From assembly GCA_001770725.1 (NCBI GenBank), contig MERU01000006.1, positions 372,001-436,000 of the forward strand: a stretch of 64,000 nucleotides of DNA, given 5' to 3'. This DNA comes from Burkholderiales bacterium RIFCSPHIGHO2_01_FULL_63_240 (GTDB lineage Bacteria > Pseudomonadota > Gammaproteobacteria > Burkholderiales > Burkholderiaceae_C). A program made the position numbers and the translations under genes. The notes under the pieces were generated by a model, which did no database searches, was not told the DNA's origin, and saw only the letters and a program-made list of their open reading frames with translations. This document shows, one piece after another, positions 7,020 through 7,717 of the stretch; position 1 is the stretch's first letter, and each line of letters begins with the position of its first letter.

Positions 7020-7457
7020 TCAGGGGCTGGGGGAAGGTGGGTGGTCGTTGCGAATGGCTTCGGCGGTGCGGGTGAACGCAGCCATCAGCTCGGCCCGCAG
7101 GCCCGCATCGGCCACGACCTCGTCGAGCGCGTGCCTCATGCACAGCAGCCAGGCATCGCGCTCGGCCTGCCCGATTGAAAACGGCAGGTGCCTGCGCCGC
7201 AGGGCCGGACGGCCTCGCTGGGCGGAATAAAGCCGGGGCCCGCCCAGCCATTCGTGGAGGTAGAGCCTGAGTACGGCCTTGGTCTGCGACAGGTCAGGCT
7301 CGTGCATGGCGCGGATGCCAACGGCCTCTGGCAGCTCGTCCATCCACCGGTAGAAGGCGTCGACCAGGCGTGCCACGGCCACCTCCCCGCCGATGCGGGC
7401 GAAGTGCGGGTTGGCGGCCGCGGTGACGACCTCGGGCAGGGGAGCGGGCTGGTTCAT
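7020..7457 (-). CDS. Truncated hemoglobin, group II (TrHbO-like)
   Basis: 145 residues. Group II marks are visible: RIGGEVAVARLVDAFY with the B10 Tyr, the proximal His in LRRRHLPFSIG, and the G8 Trp in ERDAWLLCM. It should bind heme and O2/NO in the cytoplasm. It is transcribed away from nifH, and the spacer holds a sigma-54-like promoter and a NifA-type site. O2 or NO management for nitrogenase is therefore the natural inference. Start: the ATG at 7457 has no good ribosome site and would lie one base from the predicted transcript start. A GTG codon about 26 codons further in (EVAV) has GGGGAGG in front and would remove only the first helix. Confidence 0.9.
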   Translation of the reverse strand: MNQPAPLPEVVTAAANPHFARIGGEVAVARLVDAFYRWMDELPEAVGIRAMHEPDLSQTKAVLRLYLHEWLGGPRLYSAQRGRPALRRRHLPFSIGQAERDAWLLCMRHALDEVVADAGLRAELMAAFTRTAEAIRNDHPPSPSP

Positions 7458-7469
7458 GCGCACTTCAGC

Positions 7470-7485
7470 GCAAAGCCCATGCCAG
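7470..7485 (-). promoter_or_regulatory. Sigma-54 (-24/-12) promoter of the truncated hemoglobin operon
   Basis: On the minus strand the bases read CTGGCATGGGCTTTGC: GG and GC with exactly ten bases between, fitting YTGGYAYR-N4-TTGC. The predicted start is near 7458, immediately before the hemoglobin ATG, which would make a leaderless message or require a downstream start codon. Confidence 0.6.
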
Positions 7486-7529
7486 CCGGGCATTGCCCAC
7501 GTGGGTGAAGGTGCATGCCCGTTGGGGCC

Positions 7530-7545
7530 TGTGCCCTTCGCGACG
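7530..7545. promoter_or_regulatory. Imperfect NifA-type half site
   Basis: TGT-N10-ACG, one base off the NifA consensus TGT-N10-ACA, starting 30 bases from the perfect site at 7560, about three helical turns. It may be an auxiliary site; the evidence is weak on its own. Confidence 0.35.
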
Positions 7546-7559
7546 CATGCCGAGGGTTT

Positions 7560-7575
7560 TGTCGGCTTTCAGACA
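7560..7575. promoter_or_regulatory. NifA upstream activator sequence
   Basis: A perfect TGT-N10-ACA (TGT CGGCTTTCAG ACA). It lies about 127 bases upstream of the nifH -24 element and about 76 bases upstream of the divergent hemoglobin -24 element, a normal range for an enhancer-type site, and could serve both promoters. An almost identical site is upstream of nifE (12711-12726). Confidence 0.8.
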
Positions 7576-7700
7576 GGACCTGACCGACTCGGATGGCCAG
7601 GCAGAGCAGGGCGAACAGGGCTCCGTCACCCGAGGTCTTCCCAGGGCAAAACCATGCAGAAGTGGCCCGGCGAGAGGGGGCATCGCCTCGCATGAACAGG

Positions 7701-7717
7701 CTGGCACGCCAGTTGCG
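7701..7717 (+). promoter_or_regulatory. Sigma-54 (-24/-12) promoter of nifHDK
   Basis: CTGGCACG-CCAG-TTGCG, an almost perfect match to the RpoN consensus. The transcript should start near 7728, giving a leader of about 120 bases before nifH. The rest of the 7458-7850 spacer contains no gene. Confidence 0.92.

Follow-up and report, generated by a model that had tools for sequence, protein, structure and literature searches.

A putative NifA/sigma54 control region between nifH and a truncated hemoglobin gene whose message is predicted to be leaderless

A truncated hemoglobin gene and nifH, transcribed in opposite directions in a 64-kb stretch of Burkholderiales DNA (the whole stretch analysed, here called the window), are separated by a spacer in which two sigma54 promoter sequences flank one perfect NifA upstream activator site. 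We propose that this one NifA site acts on nifH in one direction and, in the other, on an operon formed by the hemoglobin gene, a gene for a 202-amino-acid protein (p202) and, less securely, fmdB. NifA and the sigma54-RNA polymerase would then induce the hemoglobin along with nitrogenase when both fixed nitrogen and O2 are low. The hemoglobin message, starting at or next to its AUG, would undergo leaderless translation without a Shine-Dalgarno leader, and p202 would be translated from a normal ribosome-binding site. The globin would most likely buffer or deliver O2 (or remove NO) in the vicinity of nitrogenase and of its respiratory chain. Taken as a whole, this reading of a divergent control region, a leaderless hemoglobin message and an O2 or NO role near nitrogenase appears probable to us. 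It touches the long-standing question of how aerobic nitrogen fixers protect their O2- and NO-sensitive nitrogenase while respiring.

The spacer and its regulatory sites

The features of the region are listed in Table 1. A first-pass annotation had identified the two genes flanking the spacer as those of a truncated hemoglobin and of the nitrogenase iron protein, and had described divergent -24/-12 promoters around one perfect TGT-N10-ACA. Family searches agreed with both gene identities, and the three sites are present within one base of the positions that had been given for them.

Table 1. Control region and adjoining genes, in coordinates of the window
Feature	Position	Strand	Remarks
FmdB-type zinc-ribbon protein, 76 aa, probable third operon gene	6156-6386	-	TIGR02605 51.4 bits, cut-off 31.3
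p202, 202-aa protein, next gene after hemoglobin (22 nt gap)	6389-6997	-	without Pfam/NCBIfam family
nif-type group II truncated hemoglobin gene, 145 aa, ATG 7455-7457	7020-7457	-	PF01152 Bac_globin
Putative sigma54 -24/-12 promoter of hemoglobin, TGGCATGGGCTTTGC	7470-7484	-	perfect match to TGGCAYG-N4-TTGC
NifA upstream activator site TGT-N10-ACA, TGTCGGCTTTCAGACA	7560-7575	.	perfect; common to both promoters
Putative sigma54 -24/-12 promoter of nifH, TGGCACGCCAGTTGC	7702-7716	+	perfect match to TGGCAYG-N4-TTGC
nifH, nitrogenase iron protein	7851-8729	+	TIGR01287 456 bits, cut-off 394

Promoters recognized by sigma54 carry GG at -24 and GC at -12 (PMC4842269), and the consensus has been printed as TGGCACG-N4-TTGC (PMC4999443). 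The only two perfect matches to TGGCAYG-N4-TTGC in the 64 kb are those of the hemoglobin and nifH promoters. When up to one mismatch was allowed, nine matches were found in the window while 4.9 were expected. Scoring of the window for sigma54 sites returned 50 GG-N10-GC sites with at least 9/11, two of which reach 11/11. The NifA motif alone is unremarkable: shuffling predicts 7.7 perfect copies in the window, and three are present. A perfect divergent sigma54 pair around a perfect NifA site was found in 0/300 shuffled windows, the control consisting of mononucleotide shuffles within 200-nt blocks. In the window, the NifA site is separated from the hemoglobin promoter by 75 nt and from the nifH promoter by 126 nt. 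NifA is encoded in the same genome and on the same contig (G000:C6:366983-368584; 692 bits, cut-off 529), about 3.4 kb before the first base of the window.

Alignment of the spacer from the window and its two nearest relatives revealed three conserved blocks. One covers the nifH promoter and leader, a second the NifA site and about 45 adjoining nucleotides, and the third the hemoglobin promoter and its ATG; the remainder is scrambled. The nifH 5' leader (window 7728-7850) is near-identical across the three closest loci. A structured nifH leader was considered and rejected: the sequence is conserved in these three loci and folds no better than its shuffles (z +1.05).

The nif-linked hemoglobins and membership in the NifA regulon

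The hemoglobin matches Pfam PF01152 with an E value of 8.1e-34 and 116.9 bits (curated cut-off 21). The PDB relative closest to the alignment of nif-type hemoglobins is 2xyk, a 2-on-2 hemoglobin (E 4.7e-35, 125 profile positions) that we take to be the group II protein of Agrobacterium tumefaciens; this nearest solved structure is alike across the globin domain. The best PDB matches are 2-on-2 hemoglobins, in agreement with a group II assignment. Residues H90, W103 and Y36 are invariant in 14/14 rows of the alignment and are assumed to be the heme-pocket proximal His F8, the group II Trp G8 and Tyr B10. A globin tree was built with 122 rows, comprising 76 of the 80 named loci described below, the window and 45 other relatives. 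The window hemoglobin grouped with nif-linked relatives in a clade of 79 rows (support 100/99); the underlying alignment has few columns, and many forks of the tree are unresolved. This clade includes every named row but L104, plus L112, L113 and L114 from the search of the order, and it points to a nif-linked group of hemoglobins distinct from the housekeeping copies.

In the genus, represented by the genome under study and 36 others, copies were counted when they were close to the window hemoglobin at E 2.4e-47 or better; weaker hits were mostly housekeeping-type paralogs. By this count the nif-type hemoglobin is present in 14/37 genomes and nifH in 15/37, with all 14 contained in the 15. 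Upstream of every one of these copies (14/14), six of which are not beside nifH, there is a sigma54 site together with a perfect NifA site. The fifteenth genome with nifH (G006) has lost the hemoglobin and has kept p202, the NifA site and a sigma54 site scoring 11/11. In this natural deletion (L154 989-2052), the leader of p202 measures 83 nt and includes a Shine-Dalgarno-like AAGGA.

The comparison was extended to 81 loci, the window plus 80 kept from 124 relatives found by a contig scan; 12/14 of the genus copies appear to recur among the 80, so that the two sets overlap, and the compared sequences are related rather than independent. A locus was called nifH-adjacent when a divergent nifH lies within 1.5 kb, and sigma54 sites were accepted at 9/11 or better. 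The hemoglobin is divergent from nifH in 54/81 loci, and a sigma54 site directed toward the hemoglobin is present in 54/54 of these. Perfect NifA sites between the two genes number one in 47 of the 54, two in six and three in one. Seven loci (L078, L080, L086, L088, L094, L097 and L100, five of them Hydrogenophaga) possess a second perfect TGT-N10-ACA, located 76 nt from the first and nearer nifH. Twelve of the remaining 27 loci have a sigma54 site, which in ten cases lies 12-13 nt from the ATG. All of these short-spaced copies without nifH in view (10/10) carry their own perfect NifA site upstream. For nine of these copies the lack of linkage to nifH is clear; the contig of the tenth, L092, starts 405 nt before the gene, and nifH could lie past its end. 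Copies not seen beside nifH occur in 26 genomes, 21 of which have nifH at E 1e-80.

The order nifK-nifD-nifH divergent from hemoglobin-p202 was observed in Paraburkholderia, Derxia, Ideonella, Hydrogenophaga, Pseudacidovorax, Cupriavidus and Methylophilaceae. At the Azohydromonas hemoglobin loci, p202 was not found. Alphaproteobacterial members of the clade (Xanthobacter, Azorhizobium, Bradyrhizobium, Methylocella) have no such promoter directly upstream of the hemoglobin, and in several of them the gene is located behind other genes that also occur in the nif region of the window. Four further genes of the window are also encountered close to nif-type hemoglobins in other bacteria, alphaproteobacteria among them: those for a putative HEAT repeat protein (99-899), a DegT-type aminotransferase (3672-4844), a SIR2-like protein (4857-5714) and a 2Fe-2S ferredoxin (5767-6063).

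These data bear on whether the NifA site acts on the hemoglobin at all. It could serve nifH only, in which case the hemoglobin would have some other promoter that has escaped recognition, and the sigma54 match on the minus strand would be mere decoration. NifA dependence is a prediction, the motif is common by chance (see the counts given above), and the gap from the NifA site to the nifH promoter is often fixed at 80 nt while that to the hemoglobin promoter ranges from 8 to 199 nt. Nonetheless, we regard this explanation as very unlikely. It does not account for the sigma54 site found facing the hemoglobin at every nifH-adjacent locus. The best evidence against it comes from the unlinked copies, which keep a NifA site of their own and so suggest that the site is not there for nifH alone. 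Furthermore, both elements are absent upstream of the housekeeping-type copy of the same genome (G000:C10:22104-22511). By the same criterion, they were found together at L112 and L113, which belong to the nif clade, and at 0/43 of the other relatives tested; L026 had only sigma54-like matches and L114 only NifA-like sites.

Shared control by NifA is therefore the reading that we retain for the hemoglobin. The first-pass annotation had considered the hemoglobin and two downstream genes to be probable members of the NifA regulon and had proposed conservation of the spacer in relatives as a check. The promoter and the NifA site turned out to be kept in many diazotrophs. Together with the NifA site of the unlinked copies, the co-occurrence with nifH in the genus and the presence of NifA in the genome, this strongly supports the claim for the hemoglobin, whose membership in the NifA/sigma54 regulon is very likely on these comparative grounds. 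What had been a guess of shared control has thus become a strong inference from sequence comparison. The claim holds probably for p202 as well and less firmly for FmdB, which is located directly behind p202 only in the window and its two closest relatives (L031 and L032), 2 nt after it in the window, and is otherwise kilobases away or not found.

Distance between the promoter and the hemoglobin start codon

A point missed by the first-pass annotation is that the hemoglobin ATG (7457-7455, minus strand) lies 12 nt after the C of the -12 element (7470), which leaves no room for a leader. If sigma54 transcripts begin 12 nt after this C, the hemoglobin transcript would start at about 7458 and have a 1-nt leader. 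Since the -12 element is 12 nt before the ATG, a message start within 0-4 nt of the AUG is predicted. The short spacing is general. GC and ATG are 11-15 nt apart in 59/66 loci with a promoter (49/54 that are nifH-adjacent and 10/12 others), while in the 54 loci compared the nifH promoter is 127-195 nt from its ATG, with a median of 136. The search considered only in-frame ATG codons at least 8 nt from the sigma54 site; nearer in-frame starts are present in L108, L055, L033 and L067. As background, an ATG is found at 11-15 nt from 93/594 sigma54-like sites in the 80 loci, a figure that includes the hemoglobin ones.

Pairing with the anti-Shine-Dalgarno sequence was calculated for 45 dereplicated loci of the 59 with short spacing. 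Before the hemoglobin ATG the pairing is weaker than in the loci's own shuffles, with means of -1.99 vs -3.41 kcal/mol. Values of -4.5 kcal/mol or lower were obtained for 5/45 hemoglobin genes, 30/34 p202 genes, 36/36 nifH genes and 29/30 nifD genes. The absence of a Shine-Dalgarno sequence alone is not proof of leaderlessness, because five betaproteobacterial loci with longer leaders, of 24-40 nt, also pair weakly, with values from +1.9 to -3.1 kcal/mol (L039, L050, L066, L068 and L070, three of which are titled Methylophilaceae). Another locus, L077, has a 28-nt leader with a Shine-Dalgarno sequence. Two other possible signs were tried and discarded. A C immediately before the ATG was rejected as proof of the transcript start, as it is equally a feature of the controls p202 (30/35) and nifD (29/30), and structure at the 5' end of the hemoglobin message was rejected with a z of +1.10.

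Control by NifA and sigma54 could also be real and translation ordinary, with the true start codon further downstream or the transcript coming from further upstream. Such an arrangement would agree with the longer leaders just described, with the few short-spacing loci that show appreciable Shine-Dalgarno pairing, and with the variation of sigma54 start points by a few nucleotides, one paper placing them 8-13 nt after its motif. We consider it unlikely on several grounds. The 14-row hemoglobin alignment shows no second conserved start codon. The tail that follows the ATG looks coding, with a GC3 of 0.81 compared with 0.88 in the globin body and 0.59 upstream, and it has no stop in any of the 41 loci, out of 45, in which the anchor motif could be located. 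A scan of 5900-7900 for sigma70-type promoters found none. Finally, promoter and ATG keep a constant 11-15 nt between them, in contrast to the broad range of distances to the NifA site. Leaderlessness of the hemoglobin mRNA is accordingly put forward as a strong prediction from sequence. A sigma54 promoter held at a start codon over 45 dereplicated loci would be an unusually conserved leaderless case under nitrogen-fixation control.

Downstream genes, proposed role and known systems

A search of Pfam and NCBIfam with p202 gave no match. The protein was detected in 37/399 genomes of the order (E 1e-10); 35 of the 37 are among the 57 that have nifH (E 1e-110), and the other two are G066 and G197. 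It is thus a conserved, nif-restricted protein that has no name yet, and its C-terminal RPV is invariant. An AlphaFold2 model of p202 has a pLDDT of 90 and a pTM of 0.87. No confident fold relative was found in the PDB, where the best matches had an E of 0.057 by Foldseek and a Z of 3.2 by VIA-align, values that exclude no family. A PDB sequence match to VP3 (E 0.027) was judged to be due to chance. Elsewhere in the window, a 160-aa minus-strand ORF at 17230-17712, after the FdxN ferredoxin gene, also has no Pfam or NCBIfam match.

The first-pass annotation had suggested O2 or NO control for nitrogenase, and roles in the handling of both gases have been ascribed to group II truncated hemoglobins. 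The sequence does not separate these roles, and the job of the globin could be NO removal (or peroxide or redox protection) instead of O2 buffering or delivery, a possibility that we take seriously while holding it to be the lesser one. Against it stands an argument made for Herbaspirillum seropedicae, where the restriction of NifA activity to low O2 was taken to favor O2 delivery (PMC3093359). A further idea, which we find rather doubtful, is that the control layers are coupled and selected, NifA/sigma54 setting the timing and the leaderless message adding to it, with p202 as the dedicated partner of the globin, e.g., a reductase or docking protein. If it were true, the leaderless message would sustain synthesis of the globin at times of reduced ordinary initiation, such as during nitrogen starvation or after an O2 or NO shock, and hemoglobin-p202 would be an unrecognised nitrogenase-protection module of proteobacterial diazotrophs. 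With a globin coupled to the control region of nifH in many diazotrophs, some of them cultivated (Paraburkholderia, Derxia and Azohydromonas), the question of nitrogenase protection can be tested directly by deletion.

Truncated hemoglobin genes near nif genes have precedents, one being glbN in the nif region of Nostoc, which the first-pass annotation had cited. A nearer one is found in the H. seropedicae genome paper, which proposed NifA-regulated globin genes in the nif cluster with a possible function in O2 delivery (PMC3093359). NifA regulation of a globin in the nif clusters of relatives has therefore already been proposed in print. The globin of H. seropedicae SmR1 is located in the nif cluster and has a putative NifA-regulated promoter, as does the window hemoglobin next to nifHDK. 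The same paper noted that Burkholderia xenovorans LB400 and B. vietnamiensis G4 each have a single globin gene in the nif cluster (PMC3093359). LB400 is one of our loci (L054), and there the hemoglobin is divergent from nifH and has a sigma54 site with a 12-nt spacing, as in the window. The nitrogen-fixation section of the H. seropedicae paper is silent on sharing with nifH, start-codon spacing, leaderlessness and p202 (PMC3093359). The nif-fix cluster of the acid-mine fosmid DX-1A-14 includes a hemoglobin-like gene, nrf2, that is 68% identical to the H. seropedicae globin; it follows a rhodanese gene, and the sigmaN site is listed at the next gene, nrf3, with none at nrf2 (PMC3912193). What is new here is the sigma54 promoter at start-codon distance, the predicted leaderless architecture and p202 as a candidate partner.

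The literature searched on globins and nif and on leaderless messages and sigma54, with subscription journals mostly outside its scope, yielded no leaderless globin under sigma54. Leaderless mRNAs are reported to start with AUG (PMC3616915) and to be translated without competition for 30S subunits; in Campylobacter jejuni they have sigma70 promoters (PMC3847290). Those in the transcription start maps of Sinorhizobium meliloti, Bradyrhizobium japonicum and C. jejuni resemble the message predicted here in that the AUG is at or near the transcript start and a Shine-Dalgarno sequence is missing. The difference resides in the promoter, which is of the -10 type for the leaderless mRNAs of C. jejuni and B. 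japonicum and would be a sigma54/NifA promoter for the hemoglobin gene.
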